Assembly (NCBI GenBank): GCA_030262715.1
Contig: JAJSZR010000007.1
Location: 1-37,870, forward strand
Direction: 5' to 3'
From: Deltaproteobacteria bacterium
GTDB lineage: Bacteria > Desulfobacterota > Dissulfuribacteria > Dissulfuribacterales > UBA3076
DNA length: 37,870 bases
A program made the position numbers and the translations under genes. Shown piece by piece: positions 16,817 through 37,870 of the stretch (within the stretch, counting starts at the first letter, position 1; each line of letters begins with the position of its first letter). The notes under the pieces were generated by a model that was not told the DNA's origin, searched no databases, and worked only from the letters and a program-made list of their open reading frames with translations.

Positions 16817-16940
16817 GCAACCCTCCGAACTGTAAGCGTTTACAGGGTGCTGCAGATGCGAGGCGGAGGGTACGCAGACGTACTCCCTGTACTTCAAGTG
16901 CCCGACAACAAAGCAGATGCGGTACCCTGTGAACGCTTAC
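16817..16940. repeat. MITE-like hairpin element, copy 1 (inverted partner at 34428-34552)
   Basis: The core 16832-16940 is bounded by 17-bp terminal inverted repeats GTAAGCGTTTACAGGGT and ACCCTGTGAACGCTTAC. Inside, GCAGATGC occurs on both sides of a centre around GACGTACTCCCTGTAC. An almost identical copy lies in opposite orientation at 34428-34552. The TAA stop of murA is inside the terminal repeat. The rest of the moaA-murA gap (16711-16816) holds a CACAGACAAA word repeated twice and nothing else I can name. Confidence 0.9.
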
Positions 16941-24972: not shown

Positions 24973-26421
24973 TCAAAATAATTTCCGTATGTTTTGATAT
25001 TTCCCCTGTGATTTTACGCGGCGATATTCAATAGCGATCTCTACCAGACGGATGGCCCATTCAGAGCGCTCAAGGGCGTGAATATGGGTATAGGTTCCAA
25101 AGATATTTTTGAACACTACTCCTTCAAGGTGTCCGTCAAAGCCATGCCCCCTTATTACACGGCAGCTTAGTTTCCCTGAATTTCTTTTGTCCACCAGGAC
25201 CGGTCTGGAGTAATGAAATTCATGGCCCTGCAATATTGTCCCTACATTATAAAAGGGATTCCGGGAGATAACTTCCAGGGCGCTGTAACCATGACCAACC
25301 GGCCTTTCACCGACAACAAAATCCCAACCGATGGCTCCTACCATGGGATAGGTCTGCCCGTGCCAAACCAGTTGCCTGCCCAGATACATCAGGCCTCCAC
25401 ACTCTGCATAGACAGGAAGTCCTTGATCTATAGCCTGATAAAGATCCTTCCTCATGGCTTCATTAGCTGAAAGGCGGGCAGCCTGTGTTTCAGGGAAACC
25501 TCCCCCTATATATAGTGCATTGAGTTCCAGCAATCCGCCATCTTGAAGGGAATCCAGGAATATGAGCTTTGCCCCGGCTTTTTCCAAGGCTTCAAGGTTT
25601 TCAGGATAATAGAATTGAAAGGCCCCATCCTGGATCACACCTACGAGAGGCGTTTGTGAAGAAGGGATCTCTTCCGTACCAGGGAATAATTCCGCGCCAT
25701 CCCTGTTGCCAAATTCCCATTTACTATTCTGATCAGCGATTTTTGCTAATACATGAATATCCACTGACTCTGTCATCATCTGGCTCAGTCTGTCCAAGGC
25801 TTTGGCGGCCTGTGGGTGTTCTTCCCACGGAGTTACACCAAGATGGCGCATAGGGATAGGATCACCTTTCATCCTTGGCAGGGCGCCGAGCACAGAAAGC
25901 CCTGTGTACTTTTCCACAGATTGCCTGACAATTGTTTCATGGCGGGATCCGGCTATTTGGTTGAGTATTACTCCCTCAATACGAAGTTCCGGATCAAGCC
26001 TCTGACAGCCCAGGACAAGGGCTGCGGCTGTCCTTGTCATTTTGGTGCAGTCCAATACCAGAACAACAGGAGCATCTATCCACTTAGCAAGTTCTGCCGT
26101 GCTACTTAAACCGGAGTCATCTACTCCATCAAAGAGACCGCGATTACCTTCTATTACGCTGATATCAGCGTCTTTTGCCCTGAAGGCGAATGACTTACGG
26201 ATGACTTCCTTGGACATCAGGAAGGGATCCAGGTTGTAGCAGGGCCTTTTGGCCGCCTGAGAGAGCCAGCCGGCGTCAATGTAATCGGGGCCTTTTTTAA
26301 AAGGAATTACTTGAAGGCCCTGTCTTTGCCAGGCACGAACCAGGCCTAAAGCGGCAACAGTCTTTCCTGCTCCGCCCTTAAGCCCCGCGATTACTAATCT
26401 GGGGAAGTTTTCTTGGAACAT
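24973..26421 (-). CDS. cbiA: Cobyrinate a,c-diamide synthase family protein (CbiA / DsrN type)
   Basis: A 482-residue ATP- and glutamine-dependent amidotransferase. The P-loop GLKGGAGKT lies at residues 13-21, then FKKGPDYIDAGW, the Asp-rich EGNRGLFDG (91-99) and a class I glutaminase domain with YAECGGLMYLG (nucleophile Cys341) and GHEFHYS. CbiA amidates the a and c side chains of cobyrinic acid in B12 synthesis; the close homologue DsrN is found in dsr clusters and is thought to amidate siroheme of sulfite reductase. No other cobalamin gene is nearby and dsrMKJOP starts 3 kb away, so DsrN is a serious alternative. Confidence 0.88.
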   Translation of the reverse strand: MFQENFPRLVIAGLKGGAGKTVAALGLVRAWQRQGLQVIPFKKGPDYIDAGWLSQAAKRPCYNLDPFLMSKEVIRKSFAFRAKDADISVIEGNRGLFDGVDDSGLSSTAELAKWIDAPVVLVLDCTKMTRTAAALVLGCQRLDPELRIEGVILNQIAGSRHETIVRQSVEKYTGLSVLGALPRMKGDPIPMRHLGVTPWEEHPQAAKALDRLSQMMTESVDIHVLAKIADQNSKWEFGNRDGAELFPGTEEIPSSQTPLVGVIQDGAFQFYYPENLEALEKAGAKLIFLDSLQDGGLLELNALYIGGGFPETQAARLSANEAMRKDLYQAIDQGLPVYAECGGLMYLGRQLVWHGQTYPMVGAIGWDFVVGERPVGHGYSALEVISRNPFYNVGTILQGHEFHYSRPVLVDKRNSGKLSCRVIRGHGFDGHLEGVVFKNIFGTYTHIHALERSEWAIRLVEIAIEYRRVKSQGKYQNIRKLF

Positions 26422-28513: not shown

Positions 28514-28687
28514 GAGATGTTCATTATGAATTGTCATTCAGAAAATTAGAGGGGAGATTCTGAATGATTTCAAAGTAACTATAGGCTAATATGGCCAGCC
28601 CATGTCGCAGGATGAACGGATGAATGTTAATATCCTGTCAGCATGGCAGGAAATAGTTTAGTCTGAAGCCTTAAAAGCAATGTGACC

Positions 28688-29272
28688 ATGAATCTAGAAA
28701 AATTTCTGACAAAAAAAAGAGACCATGTAGTGGATAAGTGGATCCAGAGTGTCCAGGAAACTTATCCTGCTGAAACCGTAAAGTTTTTCAGGCACCAAAG
28801 AAATAGGTTTGCCAATCCCTTAGGCGCTGCAATTTCCGAAACAATGGGGCCACTTTTCGATGAGCTCCTTAACGAAAATAACCCGCAGAACATATCCTCT
28901 CTTCTGGACAGAATTATCAGGATCAGGGCGGTTCAGGAATTTGAGCCCTCAAGTGCTGTTGCTGTTGTTTTTTTGCTTAAGAAGGTCATCAGGGATGAGC
29001 TGAAAAAAGATATAGAAAAAGACGGACTTATTAAAGTTGAAGACCTGTTGGAATTTGAGTCGAGGATCGACTATTGTGCCCTCCTCGCCTTTGACGTATA
29101 TATGAAGTGCCGGGAGACGATCTGGGGAAACAAATTGGATGATTTTATAAAAAGACCATACGTTACAGGGGGAAACATGAGGTGTCTCTCCTATATGCTT
29201 AAACAAGAGCAGAGGCAGGGTAAGGTGGCTGAAGACTGCTGTAACAACTGCGGTCTAGGAGAAGTGAGGTAA
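28688..29272 (+). CDS. RsbRD N-terminal-like domain protein, first gene of the dsr operon
   Basis: A 194-residue soluble protein whose first part (about residues 5-140) resembles the RsbRD N-terminal, globin-like helical domain found in stressosome-type sensors: RDHVVDKWIQSVQETYP, then LLDRIIRIRAVQEF and SSAVAVVFLLKKVI. The C-terminus carries a cysteine group DCCNNCGLG that could hold metal or a disulfide. It ends five bases before dsrM, so it belongs to the operon. I recall such genes upstream of dsrM in other Desulfobacterota. A sensor or assembly role for the complex is inference. ATG 28688 is preferred; a GTG two codons earlier is possible. Confidence 0.7.
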   Translation: MNLEKFLTKKRDHVVDKWIQSVQETYPAETVKFFRHQRNRFANPLGAAISETMGPLFDELLNENNPQNISSLLDRIIRIRAVQEFEPSSAVAVVFLLKKVIRDELKKDIEKDGLIKVEDLLEFESRIDYCALLAFDVYMKCRETIWGNKLDDFIKRPYVTGGNMRCLSYMLKQEQRQGKVAEDCCNNCGLGEVR

Positions 29273-29277
29273 CGGTA

Positions 29278-30279
29278 ATGGATGTAAAAGTATCGTTAGG
29301 TGTATCTTTAGGCGCGGTTCTGGCAATTGTTCTGGTTGCTTTGGTTGGGGCGCAGGTATCAAGTCTGCAGCTTGTCTTCGGGATCCTTGTCCCCTATGCG
29401 GCATTTGTCATATTCATTTTGGGGTTTATTTATCGAGTCGTAGACTGGGGACGGTCACCTGTTCCTTTTCGCATACCCACTACGTGTGGGCAGCAGAAGA
29501 CCCTTCCCTGGATAAAACGGAACAAGCTTGAATGTCCTAGCAACACACTCGAGGTTATAGGCCGTATGATCCTTGAAGTATTCGCCTTCCGTTCGCTGTT
29601 CAAGCACACAAAGGCGGAGATGGCAAGCGGAAATATCATCTACGGCGGTTCAAAATGGCTCTGGCTAGGTGCATTGGCATTTCACTATTCTTTTCTTATT
29701 ATTGCGGTCAGGCATCTGAGGCTCTTTGTTGAGCCTGTACCGGCCTTCGTGAACGTACTTGACCTTGTAGACGGGATGCTTCAGATAGGCGCACCGACGC
29801 TTTACATCACTGACATACTTCTTATAGGTGCTGTGAGCTATCTCTTTGTAAGGCGTGTCATAGTGCCGAAAATGCGGTACATATCCCTGGCTAACGATTA
29901 CTTCCCCCTGTTTTTGATCTTGGGTATCGGTATATCCGGTGTGCTTATGCGGTTCTTCATCAGAGTAGATATAGTAAGCGTAAAAGAGCTCACTGTTGGT
30001 CTGGCCAGTTTGCACCCTGTATTACCAGAGGGGATCGGTGCAATATTTTTCGTTCATGTGGCCCTTGTCAGCACTCTGTTTGCGTATTTTCCCTTCAGCA
30101 AACTGATGCATGCAGGTGGCGTGTTCCTCAGCCCGGGGAGAAATCTGGCAAACACCAACCGCGCCAAGATGCACGTCAATCCCTGGAACTATCCTGTCAA
30201 GCTCCATACCTATGAAGAGTATGAAAATGATTTCAGAGAAAAAATGAAAAATGCCGGAATACCAGTGGAGAGGGAATAA
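29278..30279 (+). CDS. dsrM: DsrM, membrane cytochrome b subunit of DsrMKJOP
   Basis: A 333-residue integral membrane protein of the NarI/HdrE type. It binds two b-type hemes and exchanges electrons with menaquinone, passing them to DsrK. Several hydrophobic helices are seen (about residues 5-22, 28-50, 127-145, 170-190, 203-225, 252-272). Candidate heme-ligand histidines lie in the helix WLGALAFHYSFLIIAVRHLRL and in HPVLPEGIG and FFVHVALVSTLFAYFPFSKLMH. The soluble loop with PTTCGQQKTLPWIKRNKLE is typical of the DsrM subfamily. ATG 29278 follows GAGGTAACGG. Its stop lies four bases before the dsrK ATG. Confidence 0.93.
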   Translation: MDVKVSLGVSLGAVLAIVLVALVGAQVSSLQLVFGILVPYAAFVIFILGFIYRVVDWGRSPVPFRIPTTCGQQKTLPWIKRNKLECPSNTLEVIGRMILEVFAFRSLFKHTKAEMASGNIIYGGSKWLWLGALAFHYSFLIIAVRHLRLFVEPVPAFVNVLDLVDGMLQIGAPTLYITDILLIGAVSYLFVRRVIVPKMRYISLANDYFPLFLILGIGISGVLMRFFIRVDIVSVKELTVGLASLHPVLPEGIGAIFFVHVALVSTLFAYFPFSKLMHAGGVFLSPGRNLANTNRAKMHVNPWNYPVKLHTYEEYENDFREKMKNAGIPVERE

Positions 30280-30283
30280 AAAA

Positions 30284-31918
30284 ATGGCGAATATTCCTAA
30301 ATACTATGAGTCGCTGAATCTTGATTATAAACCGCCTCGTGGCAACTGGATGGATCGTCCTCTTAATATCAAGTCAGGTATTTATTGCTATCCAGCCAGA
30401 CCAAATGTTTTGGCCGGTATCCAGATGAACGATCGAAGCGACTGGGGAAAGTACTGGGTAGTCGAAGATGAGGACTGGGAGCTCCCTGATGACTGGAAGG
30501 AGCGGTTTCTCAATAAGATGAGGGACATGCTCGACAAGTATCGTACATTCAAGATATATATGGATATCTGTGTCAGGTGCGGTGCCTGTGCGGATAAGTG
30601 TCATTATTTCCTCGGCAGTGGCGATCCAATGAACATGCCTGTTATGCGGGCAGAGTTGTTGAGGTCGGTGTACAGGGGTGAGTTCACTAAAACAGGTAAG
30701 ATACTGGGGCGTATTGCCGGCGCAAGAAAGCTCACCAAAGGCGTGTTGAGGCAGATCTGGTATTATATGTTTCAGTGCAGTGAATGCCGTCGATGCTCGA
30801 CCTTTTGCCCTTATGGAATAGATACTGCGGAGATCACCATTATGGCAAGGGAGATCATGAACGAGCTCGGAATGAATATCGCCTGGATACAGGAATCGTG
30901 CTACAAATGTATCCATACAGGAAATCACCTCGGCCTCCAGCCCCAGGCATATAAAGAGTGTATTGATTGCATGCTGGGGGATATTGAAGAGAATGTGGGC
31001 ATCAGTTTCGATGTTAGCTGGAATAGAAAAGGTGCGGATATCCTCTTTGTCACCCCATCAGGTGATGTGTTTGCCGAACCAGGTATATACACACTTGCTG
31101 GCTATTTGTTGCTCTTTGAATATCTAAGAAAAGAATATGGCTTTGATTACACATGGAGTACTTATGCGTCCGAGGGCGGTGATTTTGGTTACTTTACCGC
31201 TAATGACATAGCAAAACGTATGAATTCCAAGATATACCTGGAGGCCAAACGCCTGGGTGTAAAATGGATCCTTGGCGGTGAATGCGGTCATATGTGGCGG
31301 GTCCTGAACCAGTACATGACCACATGGCACGGTCCCGTGGATTTTCTTGAGGAACCGGTCTCTCCTATTACAGGGACAAAGTTCGAGAATGCCAAGGCCC
31401 ATAAGATGGTCCACATCATGGAGTTTACCGCAGACCTGATAAAGCACGGCAAGCTCAAGTTGGACCCGAGCCGTAACGATCGTCTCAGGGTTACGTACCA
31501 CGACTCCTGCAATCCTTCCAGGGGTATGGGATTGCTGGAAGAGCCCCGCTACGTCATCAAGAATGTCTGCAACCACTTCTATGAAATGCCTGAGAATACC
31601 CTCAGGGATCAGACATTCTGCTGTGGGAGCGGGTCTGGTCTGAATGCCTCGGAGAATATGGAGCTCAGGATGAGGGGCGGCTTTCCAAGGCAGAATGCCG
31701 TCAGGTATGTAAGGGACAAGTATGGTGTAAACATGCTCGCCTGCATCTGTGCCATTGACAGGGCGGCTTTCCCTGATGCCCAGCGATATTGGAATCCGGA
31801 CGTCGGTTGCACCGGCATTACCGAGTTGGTGGCCAATGCCCTGATCATGGAAGGGGAGGGTCCGAGGACAAATAATCTGCGCGGGTTTGAGATCGCAACG
31901 TGGGAGCCAAAACCATAG
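30284..31918 (+). CDS. dsrK: DsrK, HdrD-like iron-sulfur subunit of DsrMKJOP
   Basis: A 544-residue cytoplasmic-side subunit and the proposed site of DsrC trisulfide/disulfide reduction. Two ferredoxin motifs are clear: Cys96-x2-Cys99-x2-Cys102-x3-Cys106 and Cys165-x2-Cys168-x2-Cys171-x3-Cys175-P. A CCG-type domain for the special 4Fe cluster follows, with YHDSCNPSRGMG (about 405), TFCCGSGSG (about 445) and MLACIC (about 487). ATG 30284 is preferred because GGAGAGGG lies upstream; the longer frame from 30251 overlaps dsrM. It is normally membrane-bound through DsrM. Confidence 0.96.
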   Translation: MANIPKYYESLNLDYKPPRGNWMDRPLNIKSGIYCYPARPNVLAGIQMNDRSDWGKYWVVEDEDWELPDDWKERFLNKMRDMLDKYRTFKIYMDICVRCGACADKCHYFLGSGDPMNMPVMRAELLRSVYRGEFTKTGKILGRIAGARKLTKGVLRQIWYYMFQCSECRRCSTFCPYGIDTAEITIMAREIMNELGMNIAWIQESCYKCIHTGNHLGLQPQAYKECIDCMLGDIEENVGISFDVSWNRKGADILFVTPSGDVFAEPGIYTLAGYLLLFEYLRKEYGFDYTWSTYASEGGDFGYFTANDIAKRMNSKIYLEAKRLGVKWILGGECGHMWRVLNQYMTTWHGPVDFLEEPVSPITGTKFENAKAHKMVHIMEFTADLIKHGKLKLDPSRNDRLRVTYHDSCNPSRGMGLLEEPRYVIKNVCNHFYEMPENTLRDQTFCCGSGSGLNASENMELRMRGGFPRQNAVRYVRDKYGVNMLACICAIDRAAFPDAQRYWNPDVGCTGITELVANALIMEGEGPRTNNLRGFEIATWEPKP

Positions 31919-31986
31919 TCAATGTTCAAAGGAGAGACAAATAGTATTACGCAAGGAAGAGATCCAGGGCAAGGAGGAACAAGGGG

Positions 31987-32403
31987 ATGTATGACGCTTG
32001 GAAGATCTTAGTAGGGCTTGCTATCTTTGTCGCCTTATTTACTGCCGCATTCTGGATGAATGCGGGGAAGGCCGCTCCTGTACCTGAGCCGAAGATCGAC
32101 ACGCCGGAGATCAAGAAAATGGCCAAGGCCGAAAGGAAGTGTGTGGAGGACAAGCATTTTATGCGGACCACGCACATGCAGCTCATAAACCATTGGCGTG
32201 ATCAGGCCCTCAGGGACGGCAACAGGGACTATATCAATAAGGACGGCAAAAAATATTATATCAGCCTTCAGAATACGTGCATGAAGTGTCATTCCAACAA
32301 GAAGGACTTCTGCGATAAGTGCCATGACTACACAGGGGTTTCACCGTACTGCTGGGATTGCCACATTGCGCCGAAGGAAGAGCCAAAAAGGAACGAGTTA
32401 TGA
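31987..32403 (+). CDS. dsrJ: DsrJ, periplasmic triheme cytochrome c of DsrMKJOP
   Basis: A 138-residue protein anchored by one N-terminal helix (about residues 6-24) with three heme c motifs: CMKCH (98-102), CDKCH (109-113) and CWDCH (122-126). Cys52 in RKCVEDKH corresponds by position to the cysteine that acts as unusual distal heme ligand in Allochromatium DsrJ, giving a His/Cys heme. Histidines 57, 63 and 69 could serve the other hemes. AAGGAGG lies ahead of ATG 31987. The stop overlaps the dsrO start (ATGA). Confidence 0.95.
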   Translation: MYDAWKILVGLAIFVALFTAAFWMNAGKAAPVPEPKIDTPEIKKMAKAERKCVEDKHFMRTTHMQLINHWRDQALRDGNRDYINKDGKKYYISLQNTCMKCHSNKKDFCDKCHDYTGVSPYCWDCHIAPKEEPKRNEL

Positions 32404-33200
32404 GCATGAATAGAAGAGAATTCATAAAGATAGCCGGGCTTTCCACATTATTTGGCTTGGGGGGTAAGGGTGCCTTTGAATTACTCCGCCCTGGTACGCT
32501 TGATGCCGCGGTGCACCACGGAGAGGAACATGCTCCTGAGGAGCCGGCAGAGGCGGCTATACGCTGGGGAATGGTTATTGATGTAGAGAAATGCTCAGAG
32601 CCTGGGGTCGTTGATAAGTGTATAAAGGCCTGTCACTCCACACACAATATTCCTGACTTCGGGAATTCAAAAAACCAGGTGAAGTGGCTTTGGCGAGACG
32701 ACTACGAGCATACCTTTGCAGGGAATGAAAACGAATATATGGACGATCACGTGAAGGAACTCCCGTTCCTGTGTCTGTGCAACCACTGTGATGAGCCGCC
32801 CTGTGTAAGGGTGTGTCCCACAAAGGCCACATTCAAGAGGCCTGACGGGGTCGTGGCCATGGACTATCACCGCTGCATCGGGTGTCGCTTCTGTATGGCT
32901 GCATGTCCGTATGGCTCTCGCAGCTTCAACTGGTTTGATCCCAGGAAGGCGCTTAACGAGAAGGAATTCAATATGGAATTCCCCACCCGGATGAGGGGTG
33001 TGGTGGAAAAGTGTAATTTCTGTGTGGAAAGGCTTGCACAGGACAAGTTGCCCGCATGCGTTGAGGCTGCTCCTCAGGCGCTGTTTTTTGGGAACCTGGC
33101 AGACCCTGATTCCAATGTGCGGCAGATCCTGCGCAAGCGTAGTTCCATGAGGCGTAAGTTAGAGCTCGGCACAAAGCCGTCAGTCTTTTACTTAGTGTGA
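32400..33200 (+). CDS. dsrO: DsrO, periplasmic ferredoxin-like subunit of DsrMKJOP
   Basis: A 266-residue Tat-exported iron-sulfur protein. The twin-arginine signal is NRREFIKIAGLSTLFGLGG. Cluster motifs include Cys125, Cys127, Cys130, Cys135 and Cys139 (CLCNHCDEPPCVRVCP), CIGCRFCMAACPYG (159-172) and CNFCVERLAQDKLPACVEA (205-224), plus Cys65, Cys74 and Cys78, fitting up to four 4Fe clusters. It would carry electrons between DsrJ and the quinone-facing DsrP. ATG 32400 overlaps the dsrJ stop. Confidence 0.95.
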   Translation: MSMNRREFIKIAGLSTLFGLGGKGAFELLRPGTLDAAVHHGEEHAPEEPAEAAIRWGMVIDVEKCSEPGVVDKCIKACHSTHNIPDFGNSKNQVKWLWRDDYEHTFAGNENEYMDDHVKELPFLCLCNHCDEPPCVRVCPTKATFKRPDGVVAMDYHRCIGCRFCMAACPYGSRSFNWFDPRKALNEKEFNMEFPTRMRGVVEKCNFCVERLAQDKLPACVEAAPQALFFGNLADPDSNVRQILRKRSSMRRKLELGTKPSVFYLV

Positions 33201-33210
33201 GGATGATGCC

Positions 33211-34371
33211 ATGATAGAAAAGGCTTTAAAGGGTGAACCTAGATACTATATGTGGATAGTTTTTCTGCTGGGCATCATTGGTGTCGGCTTTGGGTGTTGG
33301 CTCTACCAGATCAATGTTGGACTGGGAATTACCGGAATGGGCAGGGACATCTCCTGGGGTGTCTATATTGCACAGTTCACATACCTGGTCGGAGTGGCCG
33401 CATCTGCTGTGATGATAGTCATACCGCTCTATCTCCACAACTACAGGAAATATGCCAAGATCATAGTATTTGGTGAGTTTCTTGCAATTGCAGCAGTGAC
33501 TATGTGTATGCTGTTCATTGTGGTGGATATAGGGCAGCCACAGAGGATGCTTAATGTGCTGTTGCATCCCACACCCAACTCCATTCTCTTCTGGGATATG
33601 TGCGTGTTGGTTGGGTATCTCACGATCAATATCATAGTCGGGTATAATTGCCTGTTGGCCGAGGCGAGTCATAGGCCGCATCCGGGATGGCTGACACCTT
33701 TTATTTATCTCTCCATACCTTGGGCAGTCAGCATTCACACAGTAACAGCGTTTCTGTACGCCGGCCTTCCGGGAAGGCATTTGTGGCTGACAGCCGTGAT
33801 GGCCCCCAGGTTTCTTGCATCGGCCTTTGCATCCGGTCCTGCCTTGCTGATAATTGTGCTCCTTATTATAAGCAGGGTCAGCAAATTTGATCCAGGAAGA
33901 GACGCCTTGCAGACCATAGCTAAGACCGTCTGCTATGCCATGATCATAAACCTGTTCCTGGTAGGCATGGAGTTCTTCACAGCCTTTTACAGCAATATCC
34001 CAGGACACATGCACCCCCTTCAATACTTGTTTGTCGGCCTGCACGGCCACGGCAAACTTGTAGCCTGGATGTGGGCTGCTGCTCCCTTTGCGGCTATTGG
34101 GGTCCTTCTCTTGCTGATCCCGCCTGCCCGAAGGCACCACGGCATCCTGGCCTTTGCCTGCGCTTCAGTTTTCATAGCCTGCTGGATCGATAAGGGCGTG
34201 GCACTTGTCATCGGTGGATTTATCCCGAATCCTTTTGACAGGATCGTAGAGTACTCGGCTACATTCCCTGAGATATCCATTACTCTGGCCATCTGGGGAA
34301 TTGGTGCACTAATACTTACAGTGCTTCACAAGGTTGCAGTGACCATCAGGGAGGAAGAGGCAGCGACATAA
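33211..34371 (+). CDS. dsrP: DsrP, NrfD/PsrC-type membrane subunit of DsrMKJOP
   Basis: A 386-residue protein with about ten membrane helices of the NrfD family, which contacts the quinone pool without a conserved heme in most members. It shows WGVYIAQFTYLVGVAASAVM, the family-type WDMCVLVGYL, and the closing FPEISITLAIWGIGALILTVLHK. The first ATG at 33211 lies 10 bases after dsrO with AGGATG nearby. It is the last gene of the operon, directly followed by a strong terminator. Confidence 0.95.
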   Translation: MIEKALKGEPRYYMWIVFLLGIIGVGFGCWLYQINVGLGITGMGRDISWGVYIAQFTYLVGVAASAVMIVIPLYLHNYRKYAKIIVFGEFLAIAAVTMCMLFIVVDIGQPQRMLNVLLHPTPNSILFWDMCVLVGYLTINIIVGYNCLLAEASHRPHPGWLTPFIYLSIPWAVSIHTVTAFLYAGLPGRHLWLTAVMAPRFLASAFASGPALLIIVLLIISRVSKFDPGRDALQTIAKTVCYAMIINLFLVGMEFFTAFYSNIPGHMHPLQYLFVGLHGHGKLVAWMWAAAPFAAIGVLLLLIPPARRHHGILAFACASVFIACWIDKGVALVIGGFIPNPFDRIVEYSATFPEISITLAIWGIGALILTVLHKVAVTIREEEAAT

Positions 34372-34393: not shown

Positions 34394-34427
34394 AAAGCCC
34401 GCCAAATATGGCGGGCTTTATTTTTTT
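34394..34427 (+). terminator. Rho-independent terminator of the dsrMKJOP operon
   Basis: AAAGCCCGCC pairs perfectly with GGCGGGCTTT across a six-base loop AAATAT, followed by ATTTTTTT. It begins 22 bases after the dsrP stop. Confidence 0.96.
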
Positions 34428-34552
34428 GTAAGCGTTCACAGGACACCGCATCTGCTTTGTTGTCGGGCACTTGAAGTACAGGAAGTACGTCTGCGTACCC
34501 GTACGCCTTGCATCTGCAGCACCCTGTAAACGCTTACAGTTCGGTGGGTTGC
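34428..34552. repeat. MITE-like hairpin element, copy 2 (inverted partner at 16817-16940)
   Basis: This copy starts directly at the T-run of the dsr terminator with GTAAGCGTTCACAGG and ends with CCTGTAAACGCTTAC at 34537. The flank CAGTTCGGTGGGTTGC is also shared with copy 1. Comparing it by eye with the reverse complement of 16817-16940, I find only scattered differences and one extra base. Confidence 0.9.
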
Positions 34553-34600
34553 GATAAAACTGGCATTGTAATCCCGTGAACGGTTATATTTTTTTGGAGT

Positions 34601-34819
34601 TCAATGGTTTTTATTAGGGGAGGGAATTTCCTCGAATAATTGAGAGATCATTTTTTCCTTCATGTCTTCAATATCATCCCTGTAAAGCCTGGCTGGGAAT
34701 TCCTGTCCGCAAGCCTTGCAGACCACTCGGGCATTGTATCACTTGCCCTTTATGCGGACCGGACCGCCACATACTAAGCAACGGAGTCCGGTCTTAACTA
34801 TAAGGCAGCATTTATCCAT
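34601..34819 (-). CDS. Small dual-CXXC zinc-ribbon protein with in-frame UGA: candidate selenoprotein
   Basis: Read on the minus strand from ATG 34819 (AGAGG five bases upstream), a 72-residue protein is encoded if the single in-frame TGA at 34741-34739 is read through. It has Cys14-x2-Cys17 (RCLVCGG), the UGA as residue 27, and Cys34-x2-Cys37 (VCKACGQEF), followed by a charged helix and stop at 34601. The frame is conserved-looking on both sides of the UGA, with both halves of the zinc ribbon present. I recall a small dual-CXXC family in Desulfobacterota in which some members carry selenocysteine and others cysteine seven residues before the third cysteine, exactly the place of this UGA. A nonsense mutation of a Trp or Arg codon is the alternative. 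Function unknown. Confidence 0.6.
34705..34741 (-). promoter_or_regulatory. Candidate bacterial SECIS hairpin after the UGA
   Basis: Starting 16 bases after the UGA, GTCTGCAA pairs with TTGCGGAC (one T-G pair) around the loop GGC (minus strand, 34723-34705). Distance and a G-containing apical loop agree with the general bacterial SECIS pattern. The stem also encodes VCKACG, so some palindromy could be chance. Confidence 0.4.
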
Positions 34820-34970
34820 AATATCCTCTTTAAAGGATTTTTCGTTATTCATATTTTGTTGTAAAGTCACCTAAATATGTTTATTTATGTTAATTCCATT
34901 TTAGCATAAAGGAATTTCAAAGTCTGCACAATTAAAAAATTTATAACCGTTTACAGGCAGTGGACAACTA

Positions 34971-36191
34971 GTGATCATCAAATATCTTTTCTCTGCTCCA
35001 AAAGGGGATATCCCTGTTTGTTCTGATGATCTTCAGCGGCCTTTCTTGATCAGTCCTGGAGAAAGCCATCCTTTCCTGACTTTGGGTAACTATTTCGAGG
35101 CAATTAAAGACTTTATTCTCAGGGATCATGGGAGATCCCTGGTCACAGTCCTTCGTGAACAGTTAAAGACGGATATTAGCCCTGATCATATCAATGAAAT
35201 CCTTATTCGCACTGAAAAGCATGGAGCGCTGTACCATTTGGCAAGTGTAGAGGTCTTCTCCGGCAGGCAGTCCCTGAAGATGTGCGTCAGCACCGCTGTT
35301 TCTGAGAATAGTAAGGTCTGGCTGAGGCATGAATTTGATCTGCTAAAATTCCTGAATTCAACATTTGCCTATTCCTATCTGCCAGTGCCGTATTTTGAAG
35401 GAGATGTCAAGGTTTACTCCGACCACGGGAACGAATCCATGTCCATGTCTTTGACAGAATGGTTTGAAGACTATCACGAATGGCATCTTTCCACGGATGA
35501 AAAAAGGGGAAAACAACGGATTTGCGTCTGGGATCTGAGAAACGGCAACTGGTTTACGTCAAGGGAGGAAGGGTTTGAGATTTTCAGACAGTCCTCGAAG
35601 ATACTCACCCTATATTATGATATCCGGGGCTTTAACCAGATCTATCCCTGGCACCACGCGGCAGGGGACTTTATAGTCAGGAGCGAGGGAGGAATCATTG
35701 ATGTCAAGCTCACGACAGCCAGGAAATATGAGCCAATTATGTTATTTTCGCCAGAGGATACCGTCGATCCAGTTATAGCATTGACATATTTTTTCTTGAA
35801 CCTGTCAATCAGAATGCGGCTCGATAAATTGGACGGTGTAGGTATGGGGGCCTGGGCCGATGGTTTTTCAGTAGAGGCTTTAATACAAGGCTTTTTCAAG
35901 GGCCTTCGGATCATGGAGGCCGATGGCAGATACCGACTCGGTCAAGTCCGAGACCTGCTTTTTTTGTTTAAGGCTTTTGACCGGGAAGAGCTTGCCAGGC
36001 TTTTTCATCCGCTGTTGGACCTGTACACGAAAGAAGATCCAGGGGACTTTTCAGTAATACAGGCTAACCTGGAAAGTCACGTGCAACAGCTATATGAGGT
36101 TATCCAAGGCTTTCATTTAAGACATGATTCCGCTGAAAATACCCCATCTGCTGCGTTGCTTCGATTTCCTCGTCATTGCGACGTACGCTAA
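34971..36191 (+). CDS. Unrecognised 406-residue protein with kinase/phosphotransferase-like motifs
   Basis: I do not recognise the family. Several stretches recall the APH/protein-kinase fold in the right order: LKMCVSTAVS (about 102-111), a helix LRHEFDLLKFL (118-128), LPVPYFEGD, a hinge-like SLTEWFEDYHEWHL (160-173), then PWHHAAGDFIV (227-236) and IIDVKLTTARKYEP (242-255), which could be the catalytic loop and metal-binding segment. This is inference without alignment. No signal peptide or membrane helix is seen. GTG 34971 is the start, with a weak ribosome site. The last about 18 residues, including the stop, come from a repeat element, so the native C-terminus is probably altered. Confidence 0.6.
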   Translation: MIIKYLFSAPKGDIPVCSDDLQRPFLISPGESHPFLTLGNYFEAIKDFILRDHGRSLVTVLREQLKTDISPDHINEILIRTEKHGALYHLASVEVFSGRQSLKMCVSTAVSENSKVWLRHEFDLLKFLNSTFAYSYLPVPYFEGDVKVYSDHGNESMSMSLTEWFEDYHEWHLSTDEKRGKQRICVWDLRNGNWFTSREEGFEIFRQSSKILTLYYDIRGFNQIYPWHHAAGDFIVRSEGGIIDVKLTTARKYEPIMLFSPEDTVDPVIALTYFFLNLSIRMRLDKLDGVGMGAWADGFSVEALIQGFFKGLRIMEADGRYRLGQVRDLLFLFKAFDREELARLFHPLLDLYTKEDPGDFSVIQANLESHVQQLYEVIQGFHLRHDSAENTPSAALLRFPRHCDVR

Positions 36192-36347: not shown

Positions 36348-36395
36348 ATTTATTTTAGATAAATTATTCAAGTGTTCAAATATAAGGAGGTGTTT

Positions 36396-37055
36396 ATGGC
36401 CCGTCCGCCGCGAGATAATTCCACCCGCCGGAACCAATTGATTAGAGATCTTGAAAAAGAGATGGAGGATAATCCGAAGTCCGTCATTGCGGCCCTCAGG
36501 CTTGGCATGGTCTACCGGAATGCCGGGAGACTGGAGGATGCAGAATTCACCTTCAAATATGGCCTGGAACTTGATCCATTGTCTTTTGAGATAAAACTCA
36601 ACTTGAGTATACTCTATTTCCAGATGGGTAGACTTGAGGACGGCATAACCGAGAGCAAAGAGGCACTCAGGATTCGCCCCGAGTCTACTGAGGCCATGTC
36701 TAATATAGGTGCAGCCTATATGAACATGCAGAGATGGGAGGATGCAGCAGAATATCTCAATAAGGCCCTTGAGATCAAACCGGAGTTGATCAGTGCCCTG
36801 GCGAATCTCGTCACTGTCAACGTAGGACTCGATGATCTGGACAGTGCCATTGCGGCCGGGGAAAAGGCCGCCAGTCTGGCCCCTAAATTTGGCATTGTCC
36901 ACAACAATCTTGCCGTTGCTTATCACTACCACGGGGATTACGACTTGTCCCTTGACCACCTTGAGAAGGCCAAAAAGATCGGATATCCTGTCTCCTCTCA
37001 GTTTGCGGAGATGGTCTCTGCCAAGGCGGAATCTCGGGAAAGGGAGGTTAGCTAA
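36396..37055 (+). CDS. TPR-repeat protein
   Basis: A 219-residue soluble protein made mostly of about five tetratricopeptide repeats (about residues 30-205), with typical lines such as SVIAALRLGMVYRNAGRLED, EIKLNLSILYFQMGRLEDGI, AMSNIGAAYMNMQRWEDAAE and VHNNLAVAYHYHGDYDLSLD. TPRs bind other proteins. The ribosome site AAGGAGG lies before ATG 36396, so the longer frame from 36372 is rejected. The next gene starts three bases after its stop, so the pair likely works together. No enzymatic domain is present. Confidence 0.9.
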   Translation: MARPPRDNSTRRNQLIRDLEKEMEDNPKSVIAALRLGMVYRNAGRLEDAEFTFKYGLELDPLSFEIKLNLSILYFQMGRLEDGITESKEALRIRPESTEAMSNIGAAYMNMQRWEDAAEYLNKALEIKPELISALANLVTVNVGLDDLDSAIAAGEKAASLAPKFGIVHNNLAVAYHYHGDYDLSLDHLEKAKKIGYPVSSQFAEMVSAKAESREREVS

Positions 37056-37058
37056 TCC

Positions 37059-37870
37059 ATGGCAAGGGGAAAGAGTGCTTATAAGCCCATCTGTCCATTC
37101 TGTGACAGTCCCATAGATCGCCCAAAGGAAGTGGAGCCAAGGAGATTCGGAGACTTTGACTACGGTGCATGCGAGTGCGGAGCAGTATATGTCCATGATG
37201 TCACAGGGCACAGTCTTGGTGCAGCCTGGGTTGAGGCACTTGGTTTTGCCTGCAATGATGACTGGGACCTGGCGTGGAGTCTTACGCCGGGAGAGGACTA
37301 TGGGGACGCTATTTTAGAAAATTATGATATCGAGTCTCACCTTGTCCAGCCTACTGGACTGACAAAGGACGAAAAAGTAGTAAAGGCCGCACTTGTCTTT
37401 ATTCGAATGGGAAAAGATATCCGTGAGGTCACCCATGAGGGTATCAAGGAGAGGCTTAAGTTGTTCGCTGGAACCCGGATCTCTCAGGAAGAGAAAGATA
37501 AGGCCTATTTCGAGAGGAGATCACACCGGTATTCCAAGCAGCAGGTCAAGGCCCTTGTAGAGTCCGGAGAGGTTGAAAAAATCAGGGCAATGGCCTTTGA
37601 AGACCCCTTGGTTTTAAGAAAGATTCAACGCCTTCTGTATTCAACAGATGAGATGTTGATGTGGAAGGCAATTACCACACTGGGTGCGGTCGCAGGGGCA
37701 CTAGCCACAGACAGGCCGGCTCTTGTGGGCGATCTGGTCAGGAGGCTTCTTCTAGCCAGCGGCGACTCAGCAGCCACGAATTGGGGATCCATAGAGACGA
37801 TCGGCGAAATAATACGTGCCCAGCCCAAGATATATGGCTCATTCGTGCGGCATATACTTGTATTCGTGAA
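37059..37870 (+). CDS. Zinc-ribbon protein with helical-repeat C-terminus, partial
   Basis: An open frame of at least 270 residues that runs off the right edge. Residues 12-42 contain PICPFCDSPI and ACECGAVY, a four-cysteine zinc ribbon (CPFC and CECG). From about residue 110 the protein is helical and charged, and after residue 170 it looks like HEAT/armadillo-type repeats (RKIQRLLYSTDEMLMWKAI, then ALVGDLVRRLLLASGDSAAT and IETIGEIIRAQP). I do not know its function. GGAGG upstream and a three-base gap tie it to the TPR gene. I recall similar pairs in sulfate reducers but cannot check. Confidence 0.75.
   Translation, partial: MARGKSAYKPICPFCDSPIDRPKEVEPRRFGDFDYGACECGAVYVHDVTGHSLGAAWVEALGFACNDDWDLAWSLTPGEDYGDAILENYDIESHLVQPTGLTKDEKVVKAALVFIRMGKDIREVTHEGIKERLKLFAGTRISQEEKDKAYFERRSHRYSKQQVKALVESGEVEKIRAMAFEDPLVLRKIQRLLYSTDEMLMWKAITTLGAVAGALATDRPALVGDLVRRLLLASGDSAATNWGSIETIGEIIRAQPKIYGSFVRHILVFV

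Follow-up and report, generated by a model that had tools for sequence, protein, structure and literature searches.

An Interrupted Frame Beside a dsr Operon

The window analyzed here, a stretch of 37,870 nt from a bacterium of the order Dissulfuribacterales, includes a dsrMKJOP operon and, convergent to it, a small frame interrupted by a UGA. The locus raises two questions: whether this UGA is a stop or is read as selenocysteine (Sec), and what a selenoprotein would be doing beside genes for dissimilatory sulfite reduction.

The first-pass annotation, made from the letters alone, had described a 72-residue minus-strand gene with a single in-frame UGA between two CXXC pairs, and every detail of that description holds. 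The gene (34601–34819, minus strand) starts with ATG and comprises 26 codons, the in-frame UGA, 45 further codons and a UGA stop; its translation is MDKCCLIVKTGLRCLVCGGPVRIKGKUYNARVVCKACGQEFPARLYRDDIEDMKEKMISQLFEEIPSPNKNH. The in-frame UGA (34739–34741) corresponds to residue 27 and lies seven residues ahead of the third cysteine, as had been noted, and the good ribosome-binding site seen before the ATG is a GAGG (34825–34828) with a spacing of five bases. Standard gene callers truncate or miss genes of this kind, and the supplied open reading frames illustrate it, in agreement with the same annotation.

Two Branches of a Catalogued Family

The first-pass annotation had pointed to a small dual-CXXC family with cysteine or selenocysteine at the UGA position, and such a family exists in NCBIfam as NF041197, "dual CXXC motif small (seleno)protein". 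With cysteine placed at the UGA, the window protein scores 42.6 bits against this model (curated cut-off, 40), as compared with 33.2 bits if the stop is kept in a read-through translation of the genome. The protein is small, like the other members of the family, and has the same layout: a CXXC pair on either side of a Sec or Cys that precedes the third cysteine by seven residues. Homologs were found in 53 of the 99 relatives searched, nearly all of them with one in-frame UGA. NF041197 corresponds to the hypothetical protein OS_HP3, with the motif RxU, in a review of prokaryotic selenoproteins that traces it to 2007 work on a symbiont of Olavius algarvensis (PMC13188914). The family itself is therefore already known and catalogued; what is new here is its division into branches and the tie to dsr genes.

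The family genes that we extracted form two branches, both often present in one genome, and the scores of the two branch models did not overlap across all sequences. The window protein reached 83 bits against a second-branch model built without its genus and 35 bits against the model for the first, classical branch, indicating that the window gene is a member of the second and not of the classical branch. Second-branch proteins show the motif C-x-x-C-G-G-x-A-x-I-x-G-R-U-x-N-A-x-V-x-C-x-x-C-G, followed by a predicted helix, whereas the first branch is marked by motifs of the type C-R-R-U-R and, in most members, by a terminal C-D-R-I/L or V-D-R-I. Around the Sec residue, (R/K)-(R/T)-U-(R/K) in the classical branch is thus opposed to GG-x-A-x-I-x-G-R-U-x-N-A-x-V in the branch of the window, which also lacks the C-terminal C-D-R-(I/L) tail; accordingly, the window protein has neither the classical R-x-U type motif nor this tail. 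The separation by motif and scores makes functional equivalence of the two branches less likely and leaves the family-level match unaffected. Named carriers of the second branch include Thermosulfurimonas dismutans, Desulfacinum hydrothermale and Desulfosarcina widdelii. Within a single family of the phylum (f50), first-branch relatives (L143–L146 and L149–L152) have Cys in place of Sec, for instance in RTC-H-E-V-Y-M-x-C.

Conservation of the Codon and of the Frame After It

Homologs had been expected to carry Cys or Sec at residue 27, an expectation borne out by 115 distinct second-branch sequences, in which the codon is UGA in 113 cases and specifies Cys in the other two (L091 and L142, from the same genus, with GKC-x-x-SKVVC at the Sec column). 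Neither Trp nor Arg was found at this position among second-branch relatives, and the codon was never TAA or TAG. The set was brought to this size in two ways: the second-branch model was run against 395 genomes of the phylum, and named genomes were scanned with a DNA pattern. Because the pattern included a UGA, the scan does not count as independent evidence on this column, whereas the profile searches of relatives, phylum sample and genus did not require a UGA. Two UGA-containing sequences (L140 and L141), which have one extra residue between the second cysteine and Sec, were read by eye. A search of eight genomes of the genus found the gene in five, always with the UGA, and thus no stop-free version in close strains that would speak against a selenoprotein.

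Protein-level conservation of the frame continues past the UGA in more than 100 relatives from across the phylum, and the differences within the genus after this codon amount to 72, 64 and 226 at the first, second and third codon positions, respectively, a distribution indicative of a translated frame. That the UGA is a true stop, leaving a truncated peptide of 26 residues or a decaying pseudogene, would agree with the standard code and with the UGA stops of other genes in the window, but the conservation and third-position excess beyond it, together with a codon that is never another stop and is replaced by Cys in two relatives, led us to reject this reading as extremely improbable.

A Hairpin Downstream of the UGA

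The hairpin with a GGC loop that the first-pass annotation placed 16 bases after the UGA is present (34705–34723, minus strand; loop at 34713–34715), with eight pairs and a UGA-to-loop distance of 23 nt. Its energy, −10.6 kcal/mol, is not unusual compared with shuffled sequences (z 0.75), and only covariation was therefore used as evidence. In an alignment of 40 second-branch sequences, with column numbering that starts at the T of the UGA, columns 19–26 were set against columns 30–37: 90.9% of the cells hold standard pairs, and compensatory changes occur in 39 cells as compared with 14.5 in shuffles; when the partner was slid by one to three columns as a control, pairing fell to 30–53%. Even the innermost pair varies, appearing as C-G, A-U, G-C, U-A or G-U. 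These results indicate that the hairpin is maintained by compensatory changes.

Rules for bacterial SECIS elements ask for a G in the first two bases of the loop, a spacing of 16–37 nt and an energy of −7.5 kcal/mol or lower (PMC13188914). The window hairpin agrees with them in loop, spacing and energy, and the minimum-energy fold does so in loop and spacing in 36 of the 40 second-branch sequences. As in bacterial SECIS elements, the structure is situated within the coding sequence just past the UGA, with a small loop led by G at 23 nt from it, and it differs from them in no principle. The hairpin of the first branch occupies another offset, with columns 13–19 pairing with 24–30, a further difference between the two branches.

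A search of the window's genome for selA, selB, selC and selD, suggested along with the first-pass annotation, found them all, with the tRNA-Sec scoring 75 bits. The selD gene (L048) itself contains one in-frame UGA and is therefore probably a selenoprotein gene too. The presence of the complete Sec machinery, the alternation of Sec and Cys at residue 27 with no Trp or Arg, and the covarying SECIS-like hairpin all argue against decoding of the UGA as another residue, be it Trp, Arg or Cys inserted by suppression; we rejected such a reassignment, which is likewise extremely improbable.

From these comparisons, the window gene almost certainly encodes a selenoprotein of the NF041197 family, a degree of confidence that applies to its selenoprotein nature and family assignment and not to its role. 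SelB and Sec-tRNA-Sec, guided by the hairpin right after the UGA, would insert selenocysteine at residue 27.

Genomic Neighborhood and Co-occurrence With dsr Genes

The dsrM, dsrK, dsrJ, dsrO and dsrP genes (29278–34371, plus strand), named here after the first-pass annotation and the gene order rather than by a family scan, are convergent with the selenoprotein gene. Directly before dsrM there is a gene with an RsbRD N-terminal domain (28682–29272), which is conserved across the order. On the other side, divergent from the selenoprotein gene, lie a gene of 406 residues with no Pfam match (34971–36191, plus strand), found in only some members of the genus, and a gene that by its sequence appearance encodes TPR repeats (36372–37055, plus strand), conserved in the order. 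The latter is followed by another conserved neighbor, a larger gene of which only the start is included (37059–37868, plus strand), since it is cut by the end of the window, and whose product has about 575 residues in relatives.

Across the order, the selenoprotein gene, encoded on the opposite strand, has dsrP on one side and the TPR gene, followed by the large repeat protein, on the other; within about 6 kb there are usually also dsrA and two cysteine-cluster genes that by eye resemble YkgJ. The flanks examined contained a dsr gene at around 29 loci of the order and at one locus outside it (L127); in two cases (L058 and L080), dsrA starts 170–180 bases downstream of the selenoprotein gene and on the same strand. 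This recurrence indicates that the dsr neighborhood is conserved across the order and not accidental. Outside the order, and with the exception of genome G305, we found no adjoining dsr genes in the flanks examined, and the functional link may therefore reflect no more than a common lifestyle. In other families of the phylum the neighbors differ and, judged by eye, look like housekeeping genes (topoisomerase I, DprA and response-regulator-like proteins).

Co-occurrence extends beyond the order: a dsrA gene above the cut-off was present in 51 of 52 second-branch genomes of the phylum sample, as compared with about 137 of the 343 others (hand count), and a Fisher test on 50 of 51 second-branch genomes gave 5e-17, a figure inflated by the relatedness of the genomes. 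We found no paper tying the family to dsr genes in a literature search that covered few subscription journals. The place beside dsrMKJOP or dsrAB provides a testable pathway link for a family of unknown function and concerns the part of selenium in the biological sulfur cycle, sulfate reducers and sulfur disproportionators being frequent carriers of the second branch.

In three of the eight genus members searched, the gene did not turn up. Two of these genomes, nearly complete (G002 and G004), have an intact dsr locus with no trace of the selenoprotein gene and with the 406-residue gene about 80 bases after dsrP, and they retain selA and tRNA-Sec; the gene is thus not essential for dissimilatory sulfite reduction. 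The third (G001) has no match to dsrP in its assembly either. A further genome of the genus (G007) contains two very similar copies of the gene (L055 and L057) at contig ends, perhaps reflecting a mixture of strains in the metagenome assembly.

Predicted Fold and Possible Role

The predicted structure of the window protein, a model of moderate confidence (block means of pLDDT of 84–91 for residues 11–50), places Sec27 at the turn between strands one and two; a short third strand and a long helix at the C terminus complete the fold. All structural matches were weak, mostly to zinc ribbons (Z at most 3.3; Foldseek E above 0.3), and are uninformative about function, so we rejected an assignment of function from the fold; likewise, comparison of the sequence profile with solved structures returned nothing convincing. 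The protein resembles the ribbons of RPB9, the ATCase regulatory chain and LysW in having four cysteines in two CXXC knuckles, with weak structural and profile matches that are below significance, and none of these three is known to carry Sec between the knuckles. The protein is most likely a small ribbon in which a single metal ion, probably zinc, would be bound by Cys 14, 17, 34 and 37, with Sec on the turn between the two strands and a helix at the C-terminal end.

The selenolate of this residue is probably redox active and would take part in cytoplasmic thiol, persulfide or polysulfide chemistry. The role of the protein, as distinct from its being a selenoprotein, is somewhat more probably unrelated to dsr: it could be a ribbon for general redox, oxidative-stress or metal-handling functions, or a regulator, which sulfate reducers and disproportionators happen to carry. 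The housekeeping appearance of the neighbors outside the order and the loss of the gene without loss of dsr are consistent with such a role, whereas the near confinement of the second branch to genomes with dsrA and the stable position beside dsrP, or just upstream of dsrA in two genomes, argue against it. The same co-occurrence and neighborhood allow the tentative suggestion, the foremost among specific roles although below even odds, that the thiol or sulfane-sulfur chemistry of the Sec residue is accessory to dissimilatory sulfite reduction. With similar reserve, the second branch might be a functionally distinct selenoprotein family dedicated to dissimilatory sulfur metabolism, in which the selenolate of the metal-bound ribbon would act on sulfane sulfur or on a thiol partner of the Dsr system, such as DsrC.

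Other Features of the Window

A second candidate for read-through, at 24973–26421, with 43 codons open after its UGA, was rejected: the tail is soon interrupted by additional UGAs and bears no family signature, and upstream of the UGA the gene already encodes a whole amidotransferase of the CobB/CobQ type.

The window has two copies of a palindromic element of about 110 bases (34427–34538 and 16832–16940), with arms CCTGTRAACGCTTACA; the arm has seven sites as compared with 0.7 expected, and the element looks like a small interspersed repeat. The selenoprotein gene is itself flanked by inverted arms of 23 nt (34573–34595 and 34935–34957) that are 83% complementary and resemble the palindromic repeat. 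Two relatives from the genus have no such arms around their copy of the gene, so these are probably independent insertions.
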